In this document: positions 9,586-61,851 of the stretch, one piece after another
Position numbering within the stretch: position 1 is the first letter of the stretch
Layout of the letters: each line of letters starts with the position of its first letter
Assembly (NCBI RefSeq): GCF_003287285.1
Contig: NZ_QMIG01000022.1
Span: 1 to 64,000, forward strand
Origin: Phytoactinopolyspora halophila
GTDB lineage: Bacteria > Actinomycetota > Actinomycetes > Jiangellales > Jiangellaceae
Direction of reading: 5' to 3'
Length of the DNA: 64,000 bases
Position numbers and translations under genes: made by a program
Notes under the pieces: generated by a model
The model's database searches: none
The model's input: only the letters and a program-made list of their open reading frames with translations
What the model was told of the DNA's origin: nothing

Positions 9586-10632
9586 GTGCTGATCATCCTG
9601 ACGCGCCTGCGGCGCCAGTTGGCGCGAGTGCGCACTGGTGTGCCCGCGGCGGTGGTCATGGCATTCGTCTTCGTCACCAGCTGGCCGTTGATGGTCCTCT
9701 TCGAGCCGGCCGGCAGCCCGATCGTCGAGCCGGAGAACTACTGGTGGTGGTTCATCGTCACCGGATCCACGGTGGGGTACGGCGATTTCTACCCGGAGAC
9801 GGTCGGGGGGCACGTGGTCGGTGTCTACGTGATCGTCGGTGGTATTGCCGCCCTGACTACCCTGTTCACCCAGCTGGCGAACGTCATCGAGAGAGCGAGA
9901 GGACGGCGCATGCAAGGTGCCATCACGGTCGATGTGGCCGATCACGTGGTCGTGCTGGGGTACACCCCAGGCCGTACCGAGCGCATCGTGCACGGTATGC
10001 CCACCGAGGGGGGAAGGACGGTGGTGCTGTGCGCGTGGGACGACGTGGAGGCTCACCCGATGCCGGACCGGGATGTCGAGTTCGTCCGCGGTGACCTGAC
10101 CGATGTGGACGTGCTGCGCCGGGCGGGAGTCCACCGTGCGTACAGCGTCCTGGTGGATGCTCGCGACGACAACGAGGCACTGGCCATGGCCGTGTCGGTC
10201 CAGCACCTCAACCCGGAGGCGCACCTGGTGGTGGCGTTGCGCGACATGAGCCGGGCAGACCACCTGAAATACGTGAGCGAGTCGATCCGGTGCGTGCAGT
10301 GGCACATGCCCCGGATGGCGACCGAGGAGCTGCAGGATCCAGGCGTCACCCAGGTGTACATGGAACTCATGCGGTACGGCGGCGGCAATGCTTACTCGAT
10401 GCGGCTGCCGGACTCGATGGGAGGTGTGACGTTCGGCGCGTGCCAGACCGCGTTCGGCCAGGGCCACGACGCCACGGTGCTGGCCGTCCGGACGAGTGAG
10501 GGCTTGCAGGTGAGTCCCAGCTGGAGCACCGAGCTGCCCGCCGGTTCAGTGTTGTACTACGTCGGCCGCGAACGCCTGGAACCGGGACAGATCGCGGGGA
10601 CCGTGCGGAAAGCGGCCGTCCCGGGAGCGTGA
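9586..10632 (+). CDS. Two-TM potassium channel with RCK/TrkA-N domain
   Basis: 348 residues. The N-terminus has two membrane helices (about 20-40 and 80-105) around a pore loop with the K+ selectivity filter in STVGYGDFYP. A cytoplasmic RCK (TrkA-N, Rossmann) domain follows (VVVLGYTPGRTERIVH, then FVRGDLTDVDVLRRAGV). Such channels are gated by ligand binding to the RCK ring. It is divergent from the DUF4178 operon and belongs to the same conserved neighbourhood in many actinobacteria. Confidence 0.93.
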   Translation: MLIILTRLRRQLARVRTGVPAAVVMAFVFVTSWPLMVLFEPAGSPIVEPENYWWWFIVTGSTVGYGDFYPETVGGHVVGVYVIVGGIAALTTLFTQLANVIERARGRRMQGAITVDVADHVVVLGYTPGRTERIVHGMPTEGGRTVVLCAWDDVEAHPMPDRDVEFVRGDLTDVDVLRRAGVHRAYSVLVDARDDNEALAMAVSVQHLNPEAHLVVALRDMSRADHLKYVSESIRCVQWHMPRMATEELQDPGVTQVYMELMRYGGGNAYSMRLPDSMGGVTFGACQTAFGQGHDATVLAVRTSEGLQVSPSWSTELPAGSVLYYVGRERLEPGQIAGTVRKAAVPGA

Positions 10633-10754: not shown

Positions 10755-11429
10755 TCAGGCGGCGGCCGGCCAGCGAGGTGAGCGGCCGAGGAAGGCGACG
10801 AGACCGTCCAGCGTCGGTTCGTCCGACCACGGCACCGGGGGACCGAAAGGCGCGCCAGGAGCGACACGGGTCTGCCCGTCCGGCACCATACGGGCGATTT
10901 CCCAGGCCCTGTCGAGCAGCGGCCCCTCGACCTGCAGTGGCCGGTCGAGTGTGCGGGCGAGATCCCAGGAATGGACGACGTAATCGACGAGATGCATTCC
11001 GATTGCCTGGTGAGCGGGGATGGTCAGGTCGGCCCCGAACTCCGGCATCGGCATCATCCGGTCCAGCTCTCTCGTCGCGAAGGCGGCCAGCACCCGCTCT
11101 GCCGACGAGCGGTGTGCCGCGACGGGGTCGGTGTTCGTCACCACCCACTTCCACCGGTCCAGGTCGCCGTCGCCGTGGTATGCCGCGGCGAAGCCCTCGT
11201 TCTGGGCCGTCATGTGAGCCAGCAAGCCGTACAGCGTCCATCCCACGCACGGCGTCGGCCTGTCCAGGTCTTCGGGACGGATCGTCTCCGCCAGGTCGAG
11301 GCTGAGCCCGACCGCCTGCGCATCCAGCTCGACGACGTCCGGGTCGGTTGTTCGGTCGGCATCGCTGTTGGCGCCCGTGCCGGGAGTGTTGCCGGCGCCG
11401 TTGTCGGCACCGTTGTCATTAGTAAGCAT
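10755..11429 (-). CDS. TIGR03086 family metal-binding protein (DinB/maleylpyruvate-isomerase-like)
   Basis: 224 residues. The four-helix DinB-like fold is indicated by TPCVGWTLYGLLAHMTAQNEGF and GMHLVDYVVHSWDLAR, whose histidines and aspartate form the usual metal site of TIGR03086/MDMPI-type proteins. These enzymes are often linked to mycothiol chemistry. It is divergent from a MarR regulator; the shared intergenic region carries a palindrome overlapping this gene's start. Confidence 0.82.
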   Translation of the reverse strand: MLTNDNGADNGAGNTPGTGANSDADRTTDPDVVELDAQAVGLSLDLAETIRPEDLDRPTPCVGWTLYGLLAHMTAQNEGFAAAYHGDGDLDRWKWVVTNTDPVAAHRSSAERVLAAFATRELDRMMPMPEFGADLTIPAHQAIGMHLVDYVVHSWDLARTLDRPLQVEGPLLDRAWEIARMVPDGQTRVAPGAPFGPPVPWSDEPTLDGLVAFLGRSPRWPAAA

Positions 11430-47611: not shown

Positions 47612-47645
47612 AAAAAAGGCCCTGCCAGAAGGCGGGGCCTTTTTC
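47612..47645. terminator. Bidirectional rho-independent terminator
   Basis: AAAAAAGGCCCTGCC, AGAA loop, GGCGGGGCCTTTTT: A-run and T-run on both sides of a strong stem. It ends the rightward operon and the convergent glycosyltransferase gene. Confidence 0.92.
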
Positions 47646-54076: not shown

Positions 54077-54101
54077 AGAAGCCTCCTTTCTTTTGTCTGA
54101 C

Positions 54102-54147
54102 GTTCGGGGCAACGGTCGTCCTTCGATGGACGACCGTTGCCCCGAAC
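54102..54147. repeat. Intercistronic 20-bp perfect hairpin
   Basis: Arms of 20 bp (GTTCGGGGCAACGG...) with a 6-nt loop, 1 bp from the stop of the upstream gene and before the next RBS. No T-run. Same position in the operon as elements A-G. Confidence 0.75.
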
Positions 54148-54148
54148 A

Positions 54149-54715
54149 TTAGGAGATGCGCGCCAGGCTGCGCGCACCGACGACGTTCCCTTGGTCGTCC
54201 CGAATGAGCTCGGCTGGGACGACGAGATCACGTCGTTCAGGGAGGGCCATAGCGACCGGGCGTGACACGATCAGGTATACGCCCTCAGAGGGGGCCGGGA
54301 GGTTCTGAATTTCTTCGGCCTTCTCCTCTTTCATGTGGGTGAATAGTCCGCCAGAAAAACGGACGTATTCGGATGTTTCCACGACGTCCATGCTGATCCG
54401 GGCCGGGTGAGGCTCGGGATCAATAGTGAACAACGCGATTTCATCGTATGGGTCGACGAGGAACAACTTGACTCCATGCGGCGTCAGGTTGCGCACCTGG
54501 TTCGGTCGAGTCACGGTGACCTTCCACCGTGACAGATCTTCGTCATAGTCCACCCACATGGGCAGACCCGTTATGTCGTACATGACAGGTCTGTCGGCCT
54601 CTTCAGTGCAGATCCAGCCATGCCAATAGCCGATTGGCTGGACCTGGTGTCCCCAACGTCCCTCGGTGTCAAGAGTGTTAGAGACAATGGTCATTCGTTT
54701 CTGTGTAGTCCACAT
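54149..54715 (-). CDS. Phage protein of unknown function
   Basis: 188 residues from ATG 54,715 (AGGAGG upstream). Beta-rich with DRPVMYDITGLPMWVDYDED and SEGVYLIVSRPVAMALPERRDLVVP. Flanked by structured intercistronic elements on both sides. Unrecognised. Confidence 0.65.
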   Translation of the reverse strand: MWTTQKRMTIVSNTLDTEGRWGHQVQPIGYWHGWICTEEADRPVMYDITGLPMWVDYDEDLSRWKVTVTRPNQVRNLTPHGVKLFLVDPYDEIALFTIDPEPHPARISMDVVETSEYVRFSGGLFTHMKEEKAEEIQNLPAPSEGVYLIVSRPVAMALPERRDLVVPAELIRDDQGNVVGARSLARIS

Positions 54716-55071: not shown

Positions 55072-55107
55072 GGTCCTCCTCCTTCACTTTGCTTATTACG
55101 TCTTGGC

Positions 55108-55152
55108 GAACAGCGTGACGGCCGTCCCAGGCGGACGGCCGTCACGCTGTTC
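55108..55152. repeat. Intercistronic 20-bp perfect hairpin
   Basis: Perfect arms of 20 bp (GAACAGCGTGACGG...), 5-nt loop, directly after the TAA of the upstream gene. No T-run. Confidence 0.75.
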
Positions 55153-55153
55153 G

Positions 55154-55453
55154 TTAGGCGCGCTTATTTGTCACAACTCGGGCATAGACACCCGAGTCCT
55201 GGTCCCAGTCCCAGGCGGATATGCGGCGCCATCCGTGCTCAGCGAGCACTTCGTCGGCGGCGTCCTCCACGAGGTCCGATTTGTCCGGATCATCGATACG
55301 CACTGGCAGTTCGGTCGCGGCCATGGCTGCCGTCAGGCCATATCCGCCGTCAGGGTCATCCTGGGTGACCTGGATGTCGCAGTGCTCGCCATGTACCGTG
55401 TCGGCGAGGAGGCCGATGCTGGCTGTATATGTTGCACCCTCGATTGTTTTCAT
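55154..55453 (-). CDS. Small phage protein of unknown function
   Basis: 99 residues, alpha/beta (TYTASIGLLADTVHGEHCDI; DLVEDAADEVLAEHGWRRIS). Stop adjoins the hairpin. Unrecognised. Confidence 0.6.
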   Translation of the reverse strand: MKTIEGATYTASIGLLADTVHGEHCDIQVTQDDPDGGYGLTAAMAATELPVRIDDPDKSDLVEDAADEVLAEHGWRRISAWDWDQDSGVYARVVTNKRA

Positions 55454-55943: not shown

Positions 55944-55992
55944 GGTGCTATCCTTCCATGGAGTACGGACACTTGGTATGCTGTTACAACCT

Positions 55993-56066
55993 GGCACGGG
56001 TGACAAGAGGCCATACGCTCGGGAGGGCGGAGGCCTGGCGATCGTTCCTGCGATGCCACCCGTGCC
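55993..56066 (-). other. Three-way-junction-like structured leader
   Basis: 74-nt element closed by GGCACGGGTG / CACCCGTGCC (10 bp). Inside are two possible stems: GGC-ATCG / CGAT-GCC and AGGCC / GGCCT. It precedes the gene starting at 55,943 in the leftward mRNA. A 41-codon reading frame also crosses it but has no clear RBS. Confidence 0.4.
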
Positions 56067-56133
56067 AGCTTCTGAGGTACAGCCCTCGACATGCCCAGAG
56101 TCTAGTCATGAACGTGCCGAGGGGGAATGGGGA

Positions 56134-56173
56134 GAGACGACACCCTCACCCCCGTTCGAGAGGGTGTCGTCTC
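56134..56173. repeat. Intercistronic 14-bp perfect hairpin
   Basis: Arms GAGACGACACCCTC / GAGGGTGTCGTCTC with a 12-nt loop, just after the stop of the small gene at 56,177. Confidence 0.7.
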
Positions 56174-56176
56174 GGA

Positions 56177-56332
56177 TTAGGCCAGCATGCACCGCGTAGC
56201 AGTGACTATCCAGTAGTCGCCACACGTGCAGCGTGGCTTGCGTCCGACTTTCCAGTCCTGAGTGGTGAGTCGGACCACGGAGAACGTGAAGCCATCTTCT
56301 AGGCGACGACGTACCGCACTAAGTGCGACCAT
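56177..56332 (-). CDS. Small phage protein with C-x-C-G motif
   Basis: 51 codons from ATG 56,332: ALSAVRRRLEDGFTFSVVRL, then KPRCTCGDYWIVTATRC. Fits the style of neighbours, but the RBS is poor; a better RBS lies further upstream before an ATG in another frame, so a frameshift or alternative start is possible. Confidence 0.4.
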   Translation of the reverse strand: MVALSAVRRRLEDGFTFSVVRLTTQDWKVGRKPRCTCGDYWIVTATRCMLA

Positions 56333-56402: not shown

Positions 56403-56690
56403 CTAGCGGACTGTCTCCTGAGTGATCGGGATCGTGAATTCTATGGTTTTAACCACCCCGCTGCCCGTGATAGCGACTCCAGGGGTGGAGTCACTCATGT
56501 AGTCACGCGGGATTCCCGCGTGACGCATGGCGTTGCGCACGCGGATGTTTGCTTTGGGGTCAGTGAGCGCGAGACGCGCCACCGTGTCCCATGAAGGGCG
56601 TGGTGTGACAATGTGGCGCGGCGTGATCTCCGGCACGCGGTATTCGCCGTCGCCGTCACGCTTGACACGAAAGCGAAAAGTGATGTTCAT
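56403..56690 (-). CDS. Small phage protein of unknown function
   Basis: 95 residues from ATG 56,690: NITFRFRVKRDGDGEYRVPE then a helix and GVVKTIEFTIPITQ. Preceded by element G. Unrecognised. Confidence 0.6.
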   Translation of the reverse strand: MNITFRFRVKRDGDGEYRVPEITPRHIVTPRPSWDTVARLALTDPKANIRVRNAMRHAGIPRDYMSDSTPGVAITGSGVVKTIEFTIPITQETVR

Positions 56691-56731
56691 AGTCACATCT
56701 TCCTTTCCTTGATGTGTCCCTTCTGGGTTGG

Positions 56732-56789
56732 CTAGTAGGCCAAGAAAGGCCACGCACTCAAAAGTGCGTGGCCTAACCAAGCTCACTAG
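56732..56789 (-). repeat. Intercistronic stem-loop element G
   Basis: Outer CTAGT/ACTAG, inner perfect 11-bp stem GGCCACGCACT / AGTGCGTGGCC. Contains the stop codon of the upstream gene (56,786-56,788). Confidence 0.8.
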
Positions 56790-57007
56790 TTGTCGCGTCG
56801 GCCGAGCCCTTCACGAGCTATGACGACCATTTGGTGATCGTCGGATAGTGCCGAGTCTGTGTGAGAGTACAGCGCGCCCATTTGTGCGATAATGGCATCT
56901 GCCTTAGCCGCCATATTCCAGCGACCAATTACGGGGTCACCTTCAACGGTGATGCGATAAGCGGGCGTGCCGTCGAACATGGTTGTTATCTCAACGTATG
57001 TGCGCAT
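56786..57007 (-). CDS. Small phage protein of unknown function
   Basis: 73 residues, RTYVEITTMFDGTPAYRITV start, helical centre (WNMAAKADAIIAQMGALY). TAG stop lies in element G. RBS AGGGGAAA. Unrecognised. Confidence 0.6.
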   Translation of the reverse strand: MRTYVEITTMFDGTPAYRITVEGDPVIGRWNMAAKADAIIAQMGALYSHTDSALSDDHQMVVIAREGLGRRDN

Positions 57008-57027
57008 GGTTTCCCCTTTTTGTGCCG

Positions 57028-57258
57028 TTAGCGCAATTCAAAAACTTCCGTCTTCAGTACCTCCCATTTGGAGGCAATATCGGGATTTAGGATGCTTGCA
57101 GGATGAAGGTCGTCGAAATGTTCACTACATGCGTACGCGTCCACGTATTCGGTTTCTGTCATGGGCTGCGTGGGCGTGCTGCCTGGTAGATCACGACCAA
57201 TCGTGATCTGGACGTAGTAATTTGCGCGGTTTGGGATACCGCAAGTGCAAGTGTGCAT
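57028..57258 (-). CDS. Small phage protein with Cys/His sites
   Basis: 76 residues from ATG 57,258: M-H-T-C-T-C-G-I-P start and A-C-S-E-H-F, a possible zinc site. Preceded by element A; no element separates it from the next gene. Unrecognised. Confidence 0.6.
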   Translation of the reverse strand: MHTCTCGIPNRANYYVQITIGRDLPGSTPTQPMTETEYVDAYACSEHFDDLHPASILNPDIASKWEVLKTEVFELR

Positions 57259-57277
57259 GGTTTCCCCTCTCTCGTGC

Positions 57278-57338
57278 CTAGCGGACATGGCAAGGGTCCG
57301 ACCCCCGAAAAGGGTCGGACCCTCACTGCGAGCGCTAG
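57278..57338 (-). repeat. Intercistronic stem-loop element A
   Basis: Outer CTAGCG/CGCTAG, conserved ACATGGCA side, inner perfect 11-bp stem GGGTCCGACCC / GGGTCGGACCC. The TAG of the upstream gene is in the outer stem. Confidence 0.85.
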
Positions 57339-57544
57339 AAACTGGAGCTGGGCACAAGCACGCGATTGACAACGTGCTTTCCGTACTTGTCTTCTCGCAA
57401 AATCATGATCGTGCGGTTGGGTGGGCGGAAGGTTGTATCGTGCTCCACCTGCCAGGTGTTCCCGCCCAGCTGACGCGCCAGACCGGAAAGTGTGCGGAAG
57501 CGAAAGTGTCGAATGTGACCGTGGTTTGTGCGCGCTGTCTTCAT
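57335..57544 (-). CDS. Small basic phage protein
   Basis: 69 residues, basic (KTARTNHGHIRHFRFRTLSG). Stop inside element A, RBS GGAGGA following element B. Unrecognised. Confidence 0.6.
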   Translation of the reverse strand: MKTARTNHGHIRHFRFRTLSGLARQLGGNTWQVEHDTTFRPPNRTIMILREDKYGKHVVNRVLVPSSSF

Positions 57545-57566
57545 GGTTCCTCCTTACTTGGTGCTT

Positions 57567-57618
57567 CTAGCTGGCCACGGCAGCACACACCGAAGGTGTG
57601 CGCCACTGAAACCGCTAA
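57567..57618 (-). repeat. Intercistronic stem-loop element B
   Basis: Outer TAGC/GCTA, conserved CACGGCA / CACTGAA flanks, inner 9-bp stem GCACACACC / GGTGTGCGC with one mismatch. Contains the upstream stop codon. Confidence 0.75.
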
Positions 57619-57926
57619 AAGCGCCAATTCTTGACGGGCAGGACCACGAGTGTGTGGTCGTGCCCGTACACCTGTACATGCTCGTGACAGGCGGGGAGCG
57701 CCTGTCCGTTGTCGATCATGTACCCGGCTCTCTCGGTGCACCATATGCACCGAGAATCTTCCGGCACTGATGCGACATAGTCGGCGCGGTAATCTCGGTA
57801 CGCGCGCCACCGCGCGTCGTTGTGGTTGATCCCACGGACGACAGCGGGTATGCGGCGTCCGTTTCTCGTGATCATGAATCCTGATTCGTACTCGAACTTC
57901 AAGTCGGATAGCGTCACTGTCTTCAT
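57615..57926 (-). CDS. Small phage protein with Cys pair
   Basis: 103 residues from ATG 57,926: KFEYESGFMITRNGRRIPAV, then CIWCTERAGYM and ACHEHVQVYGHDH, a likely zinc-binding C-x-x-C...C-H-x-H set. Stop inside element B. Unrecognised. Confidence 0.65.
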   Translation of the reverse strand: MKTVTLSDLKFEYESGFMITRNGRRIPAVVRGINHNDARWRAYRDYRADYVASVPEDSRCIWCTERAGYMIDNGQALPACHEHVQVYGHDHTLVVLPVKNWRF

Positions 57927-57948
57927 GACTCCTCCTTTGGTGTTGCGC

Positions 57949-58009
57949 CTAGCGGACATGGCAAAGGGTCCAGCTCTGGAAAGAGCTGGACCCTCACTAC
58001 GAGCGCTAG
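57949..58009 (-). repeat. Intercistronic stem-loop element C
   Basis: Outer CTAGCG/CGCTAG, ACATGGCA flank, inner perfect 12-bp stem GGGTCCAGCTCT / AGAGCTGGACCC with GGAA loop. Flanks match element A; the helix differs. Upstream stop in outer stem. Confidence 0.85.
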
Positions 58010-58149
58010 ATTGTCTCACCTTGGTGCAGGTCGTCTCCCCAGCACGTGTCGCAGCATGATTGGCCGTAGGGGTCTAGCCGCGTGTCGCGGCCTTCCTCGT
58101 CGAGTTCCGCCGTGTACTCAGCACGACAACGACGGCATTCTTGTAGCAT
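58006..58149 (-). CDS. Small phage zinc-finger-like protein
   Basis: 47 residues: Q-E-C-R-R-C start and C-C-D-T-C-W, likely one zinc site. ATG 58,149 with AAGGAGAT; TAG stop inside element C. Too short for most gene finders but positioned exactly as its neighbours. Confidence 0.65.
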   Translation of the reverse strand: MLQECRRCRAEYTAELDEEGRDTRLDPYGQSCCDTCWGDDLHQGETI

Positions 58150-58170
58150 GATGATCTCCTTTCTCGTGAC

Positions 58171-58220
58171 CTAGCTGCCCATGGCAGCGGCCACCACGAG
58201 GTGGCCGCCACTAAAGCTAG
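58171..58220 (-). repeat. Intercistronic stem-loop element D
   Basis: Outer CTAGCT/AGCTAG, CCATGGCA and CACTAAAGC flanks, inner perfect 9-bp stem GCGGCCACC / GGTGGCCGC, ACGA loop. Upstream stop in outer stem. Confidence 0.85.
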
Positions 58221-58345
58221 ACGGGCCACCACTCAATCACGTCGCTAGGCTCGCGAGCGTGGAGCGCTACGTGATCTGCACACGCGGGGTCGCCATTAAT
58301 TGTCGCGATGGACTTACGGTCACACCAGCAGCACAAGCAGCACAT
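58217..58345 (-). CDS. Small phage Cys-rich protein
   Basis: 42 residues from ATG 58,345: M-C-C-L-C-C-W-C-D-R start, ACADHVALHARE. Probably zinc-binding. Stop inside element D; RBS AAGGGGAG. Unrecognised. Confidence 0.6.
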   Translation of the reverse strand: MCCLCCWCDRKSIATINGDPACADHVALHAREPSDVIEWWPV

Positions 58346-58370
58346 TGTCTCCCCTTTCTCTTGTGTTGGC

Positions 58371-58425
58371 CTAGTAGGCCATCGCAAGGGAGCGGCTTGA
58401 GCCGCTCCCCACGAAAGCTCACTAG
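58371..58425 (-). repeat. Intercistronic stem-loop element E
   Basis: Outer CTAGT/ACTAG, CCATCGCA and CACGAAAGC flanks, inner perfect 9-bp stem GGGAGCGGC / GCCGCTCCC, TTGA loop. Upstream stop in outer stem. Confidence 0.85.
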
Positions 58426-58679
58426 ATGCGGCAATACACGCAATCGCACCCCATGAGAGATGCGAGCTCGTTGCGACCATGAAAGCGGTAGGTGTTCACG
58501 GGGTCGGAAGGTTGAAGAGTGATCGTGCCAATGTCGCCGCTAGAGTCGAGCGTCTCGACAATGAGACGCCGAGTGGCAACCTGACTACATACGCTTGTGA
58601 CCGACATCAACTCGTCCCAGTTGGCATCTTGCACTAGCAGAGTGTCGCCTGGTTCGATATGCGTAGCGTTGACGATCAT
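58422..58679 (-). CDS. Small phage protein of unknown function
   Basis: 85 residues from ATG 58,679: beta-rich, IEPGDTLLVQDANWDELMSV, ending C-D-C-V-Y-C-R-I. Stop inside element E; preceded by element F and RBS GAGGAGAAAG. Unrecognised. Confidence 0.65.
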   Translation of the reverse strand: MIVNATHIEPGDTLLVQDANWDELMSVTSVCSQVATRRLIVETLDSSGDIGTITLQPSDPVNTYRFHGRNELASLMGCDCVYCRI

Positions 58680-58689
58680 GGCCTTTCTC

Positions 58690-58746
58690 CTCTCAGTCAG
58701 GAAAGCCACGCGAGCATGGCGCTCGCGTGGCCATCGAAAGCGAGAG
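58690..58746 (-). repeat. Intercistronic stem-loop element F
   Basis: Outer CTCTC/GAGAG, inner perfect 11-bp stem GCCACGCGAGC / GCTCGCGTGGC with ATGGC loop. Outer stem differs from A-E but keeps the nested design and the CATCGAAAGC flank. It follows an open frame ending at 58,769 that lacks a normal start. Confidence 0.7.
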
Positions 58747-58986: not shown

Positions 58987-59304
58987 CACACAACACAAAA
59001 AATCTTGAAAGTCGATTGTACGCTGCGTCGATGGTGCGACGAGTGGCGTGTGCGTGCACGCAACACAAAAACGATCACTGCTGCTGTGCATATTACGACG
59101 GCGTGTAGTACTACGGTAGGTAGTAGGTCAGCGTCCGCTTCACACGGTCACGAATTGGTCAAACCGTTGACCACTTGACCACATTTTCGCGCGTGATCGC
59201 GCATTGCGTGCGCACGTGTGCGCATGTGCCGATATGGATCTTGGGTGACCGCATATGGGCAGGTCAGACGTAGTTTTTCAGTTGAACAACCACCTGCCGT
59301 GACG

Positions 59305-59371
59305 GTTGTCATGACCATCTGTCACAGGCTTGACAAGCATTGTGCGTGTCATGACAGATGGTCATGACAAC
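59305..59371. repeat. Perfect 20-bp inverted repeat
   Basis: GTTGTCATGACCATCTGTCA (59,305-59,324) and its exact complement (59,352-59,371), separated by 27 bp that hold GGCTTGACAAGC. The inner half includes palindromic TGTCATGACA. Possible replication-initiator or repressor site. Confidence 0.7.
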
Positions 59372-59636
59372 TATCTTGACCCCCGGTTGTTAAATCCGCC
59401 GATCATCAAATAACCTGACCACGCTCACGCATCTCGGCTAAACTCCGTGTGTCCCACATCACTCGCGAAGGACTTTGTAAGGCCGTGTGGAGATCGATCA
59501 TCTCACATCATGAGAAATAATACGCAAATTAGGCAGATTTTTGGGCCGAATCAAGTTTGGACGGGTGTTATACCTATGAGGGGCAAGAACAAACACGGAC
59601 ACCAAGCACTAGGAACTAAACACCAGGTTCCCGGTT

Positions 59637-59663
59637 GAGAGCCGCCCTTTAGGGGCGGCTCTC
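59637..59663. terminator. GC-rich hairpin
   Basis: Stem GAGAGCCGCCC / GGGCGGCTCTC, short loop, no T-run. Confidence 0.5.
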
Positions 59664-59684
59664 CCGGGGGTGCTGGAAACGTAA

Positions 59685-59750
59685 ATTAAGCACTTAGTTC
59701 TTAAGGAGAGACGGCCCCTGAGGGCCGTCTCTCACAAGTGCTTAATTTTT
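59685..59750. terminator. Nested hairpin with T-run
   Basis: Outer ATTAAGCACTT / AAGTGCTTAAT (11 bp), inner GAGAGACGGCCC / GGGCCGTCTCTC (12 bp), then TTTTT. Same outer-plus-inner design as the leftward intercistronic elements. Confidence 0.6.
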
Positions 59751-59877
59751 AAAAACTGCTCCTTGGTTACCCCAGCTCACCTTCGTCGCTACGGCCGCTG
59801 AGGCGGCCTTCGCTCCTCGGTGAACTACCCCAAACACTTTGCCGAGAAACCACGCCCAACTCTGCCTAGGAGGTCGC

Positions 59878-61851
59878 ATGTCCAAGGCGACCTCGAACAA
59901 CTTCTTTCCGAACGAGGTCCATGGCGAAAAATCGAAGAACTTGAAGGAGATCCGTCAAGGACCTCGTGGGGGCAAGGGAACGGCTGATAGAGCGAAAAAG
60001 GAAGTCCTTCGCCTTCTCGCCGATGGTTACAAAATTAATGACGCCCTCACTGCTGTTGGTCGCTCCCGCAAGGCATACGACTACTGGCGCAAGATTGATC
60101 CCGAGTTTCGCGAAGAAGCGGATCGGATCCGGGGCCGGAGATTCCGCAAGGACGAAGGGCCGAAAGAGGTGCCGGATTTCGAGGAGTTCTGCGAAGAGTA
60201 CTTGGGGCACAAGCTCTTCAGGCATCAGCTTCAGTGGTACGACATTCTGGAAGGTCGCGAACCTCGCGATCTGACCGATGCTCAAACTTACACCCTCGGC
60301 TCCGAGCCAAACCTGCTGATCTGCAACACTCCGCCGAACCACGCCAAATCAACAACCATCACGGTTTTCTACACGCTGTGGCGGATCCTGAAGGATCCGA
60401 ACACGCAGGTGGTCATCATCTCCAAGAAGGAGGCGATGGCCAAGAAGTTTCTGTTCCAGATTAAAGATTTGCTCGTTTCTCGCTCATACCAAAAGCTTCA
60501 GGATGACTTCGGTCCCGCCGAGGGCTTCGAGAAGACGAGTCCGATCTGGTCGTCAACACAGATTTACTTCGGACCAGAGCTTCGTGACGTGAACGCGAAA
60601 GACCCCACGGTCGAGGCCGTGGGGTTGGGCGGGACTATTTACGGTGCCCGTGCTGACCTGATCATCCTCGATGACGTCATCGCCACGGACAACGCTCACG
60701 ACTTCGAGAACCAGATCGACTGGATCACTCGAATGGTGTTGACGCGCCCGACCGAGCACGGACGCGTGCTCGTGGTCGGGACGCGCGTTGCACCGGTGGA
60801 CTTGTACGGCGAACTCATGTCGCCGTCACGCTATGAAGATGAGCGAGCGCCGTGGACGTATTTCGCCCAACCGGCTGTGGAGCGTTTTGCTGAGGACCCA
60901 AAGGACTGGGTGACATTGTGGCCCCGGTCGAACATGTCCAAGCGGGGAGCAGCGACCACACCCGATGAAGATGGGCTGTTCCCGGCGTGGGATGGCCCCG
61001 CTCTCGCGAAGATGCGAGAGCGGTTGAAGACCAACCCGAACGCGTGGAGCCAGGGCTATCAGCAGCTCTCGGTGTCCGAGGATTCGATCTTCAAGCGGGA
61101 GAAGGTTTACGCCGCCGTTAATGGCATGCGTAAGGTTGGCCCGCTGTATGCGGGCCATGTTGGCCACCCGCCAGACGGCATGGACGGTAAGGCCGTCATT
61201 GCTGGCCTGGATCCGGCTTCCAGCGGTTTCACTGCTGCTGTAGTGGTGGCCATGGACCGGCGCACCGGCAAGCGGTGGTTGTTGGACGCGTACAACAAAC
61301 CAAACACCACACCAGACCAAATTCGCGACTTGTTAGTCGGTTGGGCTCGCCGCTATGGCGTCACCGAGTGGCGCGTGGAAAAGGTTCTGCTATCCAACTG
61401 GATCCTCCAGGATCAGCAACTGATTCGTGACCTCGCCAACATGGGGTGCTCGATGCGCGAGCACATCACCAACGCCAGTACCAAGTGGGATGAAGATGGC
61501 GGGATCCTGTCGCTAACGTCGCTCTTTGACGGCGACAGGCCACTGCTTGATATTCCGTCGACGCAGTACGAGGTGATTCGCACGATGTGCGAACAGTTCG
61601 TCACCTACCAGCCGAAGACGAAAAACCCGACTGACCTCATTATGGCGCTGTGGTTTGTCGAAGCACGTCTCCGTCAACTGGTGCTGCAATCCGAAGGCAG
61701 CATGTTTGTCAACTCTGCATGGACGACTCAAGAGCAACTCAACGACCAGATGGTCGTTGATTTCAGTCAGATCGACGGCCAGCTTGAGGAAATCTATATA
61801 CCAAATCGCTGGGGAAGCTCGTGGACATATTCCAAGATTACCGCGACCTAA
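59878..61851 (+). CDS. Phage terminase large subunit
   Basis: 657 residues from ATG 59,878 (AGGAGG upstream). N-terminal HTH-like region (LLADGYKINDALTAVGRSRKAY) fused to the ATPase: variant Walker A TPPNHAKSTT, Walker B LIILDD, coupling VLVVGTRVAP, then the RNase H-like nuclease starting VIAGLDPASSG. The N-terminal HTH may replace a separate small subunit. First gene of the structural module. Confidence 0.93.
   Translation: MSKATSNNFFPNEVHGEKSKNLKEIRQGPRGGKGTADRAKKEVLRLLADGYKINDALTAVGRSRKAYDYWRKIDPEFREEADRIRGRRFRKDEGPKEVPDFEEFCEEYLGHKLFRHQLQWYDILEGREPRDLTDAQTYTLGSEPNLLICNTPPNHAKSTTITVFYTLWRILKDPNTQVVIISKKEAMAKKFLFQIKDLLVSRSYQKLQDDFGPAEGFEKTSPIWSSTQIYFGPELRDVNAKDPTVEAVGLGGTIYGARADLIILDDVIATDNAHDFENQIDWITRMVLTRPTEHGRVLVVGTRVAPVDLYGELMSPSRYEDERAPWTYFAQPAVERFAEDPKDWVTLWPRSNMSKRGAATTPDEDGLFPAWDGPALAKMRERLKTNPNAWSQGYQQLSVSEDSIFKREKVYAAVNGMRKVGPLYAGHVGHPPDGMDGKAVIAGLDPASSGFTAAVVVAMDRRTGKRWLLDAYNKPNTTPDQIRDLLVGWARRYGVTEWRVEKVLLSNWILQDQQLIRDLANMGCSMREHITNASTKWDEDGGILSLTSLFDGDRPLLDIPSTQYEVIRTMCEQFVTYQPKTKNPTDLIMALWFVEARLRQLVLQSEGSMFVNSAWTTQEQLNDQMVVDFSQIDGQLEEIYIPNRWGSSWTYSKITAT

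Follow-up and report, generated by a model that had tools for sequence, protein, structure and literature searches.

Organization of the locus

The last 27 kb of the window (the whole 64-kb stretch of Phytoactinopolyspora halophila DNA that was analysed) correspond to a prophage, as indicated by a drop in GC content from ~0.67 to 0.55 near 36 kb, the presence of a TerL gene (59878–61851) and the occurrence of the same prophage in IMG/VR (L005). To the left of TerL, the prophage contains a leftward run of eight small genes on the minus strand (56403–58679), namely 56403–56690, 56786–57007, 57028–57261, 57335–57544, 57615–57926, 58006–58149, 58217–58345 and 58422–58679. Comparison of the eight genes with Pfam and PHROG gave no match. 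Their order and spacing suggest that the run is co-transcribed, and the resulting leftward polycistronic phage mRNA is probably early. In the low-GC part of the prophage, a gene at 47644–49149 matches glycosyl transferase family 2 (Pfam), an odd cargo for a phage.

Structure of the intercistronic elements

Seven nested hairpins, A to G, are located at 56732–58746 in the sense of the minus strand, in agreement with a sequence-only reading of this DNA that had described them at the same positions. That reading placed them between successive leftward genes; one leftward gap of the run, the 20 nt at 57008–57027, contains no element. Each hairpin adopts a rod shape with an outer stem of 5–6 bp, an inner helix of ~10–14 bp and a loop of 3–5 nt, so that ~18–27 positions are paired or nearly paired and are interrupted by one to three small internal loops. 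The rods extend from the stop codon of the upstream gene to 10–41 nt before the next start codon. The stop codon lies inside the outer stem in six of the seven elements, as had been claimed, and element G is the exception.

Element A (56732–56789, minus strand, as are all others) has the outer stem CUAGU/ACUAG, which includes the UAG (56786–56788) of gene 56786–57007, followed by a GGUU..UUCU motif and a 12-bp inner helix (folding energy z −7.7). The outer stem of element B (57278–57338; z −6.2) is CUAGCG/CGCUAG with the UAG of gene 57335–57544, and that of element C (57568–57617; z −4.3) is UUAGC/GCUAG with the UAG of gene 57615–57926; their inner motifs are GUG..UUGCCAUG and GUGG..CUGCCGUGG, respectively. 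Element D (57949–58009; z −7.7) holds the UAG of gene 58006–58149 in its outer stem and is a paralogue of B, the two being the nearest pair of copies among the seven: the flanks are identical and the distal helix differs, 3 of 14 pairs being changed on both sides in a compensatory manner. Element E (58172–58220; z −3.6) combines the outer stem CUAGCU/AGCUAG, the UAG of gene 58217–58345 and a GUGG..CUGCCAUGG motif, and element F (58373–58426; z −5.2) the outer stem CUAGU/ACUAG, the UAG of gene 58422–58679 and a GUGG..UUGCGAUGG motif. In element G (58690–58746; z −6.4), the outer stem CUCUC/GAGAG lacks a stop codon, and 10 nt separate the element from the start of gene 58422–58679.

For each of the seven elements, none of 300 dinucleotide shuffles reached the observed folding energy, with z values from −3.6 to −7.7. 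In six elements the sense strand folds more stably than its complement, and in D both strands are equal. The inner helix had been described as different in sequence every time yet always paired, and this is borne out by the counts: all 56 cells are paired and all eight positions are changed on both sides, whereas swapped arms pair at 46%. In the outer stem, 35 of 35 cells are paired, with double-sided changes at three of five positions. These counts were taken on hand-made structural registers rather than on a covariance model, because MAFFT alignments misplace the variable helices.

Two perfect hairpins occupy further leftward gaps of the same run, one of ~22 bp at 54097–54152 (minus strand; z −10.4) and one of 21 bp at 55103–55156 (minus strand; z −10.8), neither followed by a T-run. 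They present plain double-stranded RNA at the same position, and fit selection for dsRNA in an intercistronic position.

The inner motif

In elements B to F, a GUG in the 5′ flank of the inner helix faces a UGC in the 3′ flank, which can pair as G-C, U·G and G·U. The variable helix thus rests on a tandem U·G/G·U step, after which comes CAUG or a close variant. Element A carries GGUU..UUCU instead, and element G a third variant, GAUG..UUUC. The flanks had been read as conserved single strands; given these pairings, they are mostly a wobble/mismatch motif inside the helix, at its base, and not free single strands.

Across all elements collected, including those of related phages described below, three types of inner motif are recognised, GUG..UGCC, GGUU..UUCC and GGUGC..GCUCC. 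At one orthologous gap, GGUUG..UUCC, GGUGC..GCUCC and GGUGG..UUGCC interchange, with unrelated helices between similar flanks. A rule-based sorting of 56 non-redundant elements by simple rules assigned 32 to the three types and left 24 unassigned. The sequence-only reading had missed both the motif and its interchange between orthologous sites.

When the helices were extended with G-U and A-C scored alike, 83 G-U and 19 A-C appositions were obtained (binomial p ~1e-10, an optimistic value, as the copies are partly related). Since the two are equivalent on duplex DNA, this excess shows that selection acts on the transcribed, sense-strand RNA. Together with the shuffles and the double-sided changes, it upholds the earlier proposal that RNA structure is under selection.

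The same data bear on a DNA-level reading, in which a regulator would bind the palindromes themselves, as has been suggested for the ESAS of cluster K phages. The repeats are inverted and intergenic, which would suit it, but the helix sequence is different each time, G-U is far above A-C on one strand only, the tandem U·G/G·U step is conserved and every copy has one orientation relative to the genes, which makes a DNA palindrome most improbable. SAS and ESAS resemble the elements in being repeated intergenic features before the starts of small non-structural genes, and ESAS likewise contain imperfect inverted repeats (PMC3203893). ESAS half-sites, however, have a fixed consensus, and the same study saw little evidence that they pair as RNA (PMC3203893). 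The elements show the opposite of these 17-bp repeats, with pairing conserved and sequence variable. A search of the window for the 13-bp SAS GGGATAGGAGCCC, which in cluster K lies 3–7 nt before the start, gave 16 hits when up to three mismatches were allowed, against 20.7 expected, none of them in the elements, so that the earlier statement that the elements do not match the cluster K sequences stands.

Two other readings were set aside. Stop-codon read-through is at odds with gap lengths such as 84, 85, 74 and 76 nt, which are not all multiples of three, and no attC-like core motif of the kind found at integron attC sites was noticed by eye.

Elements in related phages

The same elements are present in phages with a TerL 38–56% identical to that of the prophage, which answers the question of homologous copies raised by the sequence-only reading. 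One of these phages, a prophage from the host's own family (L045; TerL 56% identical), contains the same motifs, including CUUGGUU..UUCUUGG at 10043, GGUGG..CGCCAUG at 10849 and further copies. The motifs also occur in the IMG/VR phages L037, L007 and L038, and elements fill most right-arm gaps of the Streptomyces Beephvirinae. At an orthologous Streptomyces gap, four of six pairs in the stop-codon stem are changed on both sides, and all 30 cells of the hand-set register are paired.

A DNA-level search of the region against phage records gave no match, a protein scan of genome contigs found nothing, and in Rfam no family scored above threshold or even at E 1. Searched with a descriptor of the elements, TM4 and phiC31 gave no convincing element, and phiC31 none at all.

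The right arms of four Beephvirinae (L047, L050, L049 and L048) contain, in addition, a separate gap element that is long and highly conserved, GCUGGC..GCGAGCCC..CUACGAAAGGAGG. It is exemplified by L047 15255–15358 and is distinct from the A–G type; in it, WRightOn and FlowerPower differ by a C-G/G-C swap.

Pairing of the outer stem beside the next RBS

In many relatives, the 3′ arm of the outer stem is also the loop of a small hairpin, S2, located just ahead of the RBS. Examples are UGGUCA-GCUCA-UGACCA in L037 (stop segment UGAGC), CCCC-AGUUCA-GGGG in FlowerPower (UGAAC), CCCC-UGCUA-GGGG in RosePharie (UAGCA) and CCCC-UACUCA-GGGG in Percastrophe (UGAGU). In the window, S2 is strong only in A (56728–56743, minus strand; UUGGC-CUACUA-GCCAA) and F (58367–58381, minus strand; UGGCC-UACUA-GGCCA), each with the outer stem's 3′ arm as its loop. 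It is weak in B and D, and essentially absent in C, E and G. This alternative or pseudoknot pairing had been overlooked in the sequence-only reading.

The first whole-locus descriptor, which required S2, gave 102 hits when both strands of 567 kb were scanned, compared with 18 after each locus had been shuffled once. As this descriptor is noisy, with many hits within genes, statistics were restricted to curated gap elements. The flanks of the 3′ arm pair better with their own partner than with swapped ones (mean pairing score 8.81 versus 5.44, sd 0.57; highest of 1000 swaps 7.27). An S2 score of at least 10 was obtained for 22 of 42 elements, against a mean of 8.9 and a maximum of 16 elements in the swaps. 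The S2 pairs also show compensatory changes. At orthologous gaps, the loop covaries with the stop segment: in hand-set registers, four of six and four of four pairs of the stop-segment stem are changed on both sides, and every cell stays paired.

These pairings would be compatible with either a pseudoknot or two mutually exclusive states. Hairpin loops that pair with an upstream strand near the RBS are likewise found in the H-type pseudoknots and kissing loops upstream of phage genes, of which the T4 gene 32 leader is an example. Unlike those, the present arrangement is repeated at one per gene gap, uses the stop codon as a pairing strand and places a variable hairpin between its halves.

Such an arrangement could act uncut, as an insulator or switch gated by translation. 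The terminating ribosome would open the stop stem and let S2 form, and once the ribosome has gone the outer stem or pseudoknot would close, so that initiation at the next gene would be uncoupled or tuned. The position of the stop codon inside the stem, the compensating S2 pairs, the covarying loop and stop segment, and the advantage of native over swapped flanks in all 1000 trials agree with this. The restriction of strong S2 hairpins in the window to A and F and the fact that the RBS itself is unpaired in both states speak against it, and we regard an uncut switch as rather unlikely, although it comes second in likelihood after the RNase III processing discussed below. A broader description is possible, although we would sooner doubt than accept it: the elements may represent an undescribed RNA architecture, a stop-codon pseudoknot or switch. 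In it, the stop codon of each early gene would pair with the S2 loop beside the following RBS and so enclose a hypervariable hairpin, which rests on one of a few interchangeable motifs. At one gene gap after another, in a group of actinophages, the terminating ribosome would thereby gate how the following cistron is processed or translated.

Alternatively, the rods or pseudoknots might protect mRNA ends, blocking 3′-5′ exonucleases or 5′-3′ RNase J and thereby sparing the flanking cistrons after cleavage elsewhere. Very stable stems right after each stop and before each RBS would suit this role, as would the pseudoknot-compatible pairing of the relatives. Protection leaves unexplained, however, why the inner motif is conserved and interchangeable and why the stem contains the stop codon, and it is decidedly unlikely.

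Comparison with terminators and RNase III sites

Termination of the ordinary kind had been considered unlikely in the sequence-only reading for want of T-runs. No U-run follows the hairpin in any of A to G, and none of the 56 elements has four or more T after the helix. A promoter-like site was not found at 54.0–59.8 kb of the window, and only 10–41 nt separate the stem from the next start, so that full termination would silence the next genes. Lacking both a T-run and a promoter-like site, the elements are not efficient ordinary terminators, in line with that assessment.

Rho-independent terminators without poly-U, or partial attenuators that each lower transcription into the next gene, would be a different matter. 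Terminators of this kind are reported for the early region of phiC31, according to the title of Ingham, Hunter and Smith 1995 as cited in PMC5335608. The phiC31 terminators resemble the elements as GC-rich intergenic hairpins without a long T-run in an actinophage early region, and the GC-rich stems with UCCG or UUCG loops found here would suit such a function. In phiC31, however, the repeat GGGTTGCCGACTCCCTTAC follows or overlaps several hairpins like a promoter, whereas nothing similar, and no promoter of its own for the next gene, follows the hairpins here, where 10–41 nt are too short for one. In addition, the stem begins at the stop codon, and a terminating ribosome would keep it open. 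Terminators of the phiC31 style are thus unlikely.

The closest architectural parallel, also absent from the sequence-only reading, is with the early RNase III sites of T7. In T7 early mRNA, five such sites are cut to yield mono- and dicistronic mRNAs (PMC4858673). The sites R0.3, R0.5, R1, R1.1 and R1.3 share an outer stem, conserved internal-loop flanks ACUCAAGG..CCUUUAUGA, plainest in R0.5 and R1.1, and a variable upper helix. Like the elements, they are nested stems with small internal loops between successive genes, lack a U-run, and are followed by the next RBS without a new promoter. R0.5 encloses the gene 0.4 stop codon in its outer stem and precedes the RBS of gene 0.5, an arrangement like that of the six elements with a stop codon. 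A descriptor built without T7-specific input, run on the T7 early region, gave exactly one match, R0.5.

The T7 signature CUCAAGG..CCUUUAUGA (ACUCAAGG..CCUUUAUGA) has no match in the window, and the elements are therefore not filed as T7-type members. They also differ from the T7 sites in having three interchangeable inner motifs and, in many copies, an additional S2. Host lineage and phage family are unrelated, and the likeness is one read from sequence. The host genome encodes an RNase III (TIGR02191, 245.5 bits, over the curated cut-off), and the S. coelicolor enzyme (AbsB) cleaves mRNA (PMC2936110).

Based on the plan of the T7 sites, the descriptor match at R0.5, the host RNase III and the neighbouring 21–22 bp hairpins, we favour processing by host RNase III, and put the chance that the elements work like the T7 early sites at roughly even. 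Among the functions suggested in the sequence-only reading, a processing site thus appears to have the best support. The leftward, probably early, polycistronic mRNA would carry the elements as intercistronic RNA structures, and a rod would close when the ribosome departs from the stop codon. Host RNase III would then cut the closed rod and split the long message into units with structured ends, each with its own translation and decay. Sited at a fixed place, the inner motif would set or limit cutting, leaving the helix sequence free as long as pairing and motif are kept. Both the cutting and its benefit to translation or stability are deduced from this comparison. Against RNase III processing, cutting does not itself need the S2 pairing of many relatives, and stable rods can also act uncut.

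If RNase III processing is correct, unrelated actinophages would have arrived at the same way as T7 of cutting or insulating an early polycistronic message, and would have added pairing between the upstream stop codon and the downstream initiation region. Being short, numerous and carried by cultured Streptomyces phages, the elements lend themselves to direct functional tests. They also constitute natural, sequence-diverse intercistronic parts for actinobacterial expression.

Other inverted repeats in the prophage

A longer intergenic stretch of the same leftward run contains an 18-nt inverted repeat with a 48-nt loop (55988–56071) and a 14-bp hairpin (56130–56178). In the divergent region before TerL, an imperfect 43-nt inverted repeat at 59282–59394 includes TGTCATGACCATCTGTCA and its reverse complement, and looks like an operator region. 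Directly before TerL, at 59638–59760, are two more hairpins, GAGAGCCGCCC.. and GAGAGACGGCCC..GGGCCGTCTCTC, the second of which lies within AATTAAGCACTT/AAGTGCTTAATT and has a T-run after it; from their sequence and position, a terminator or a feature of the packaging region is possible.
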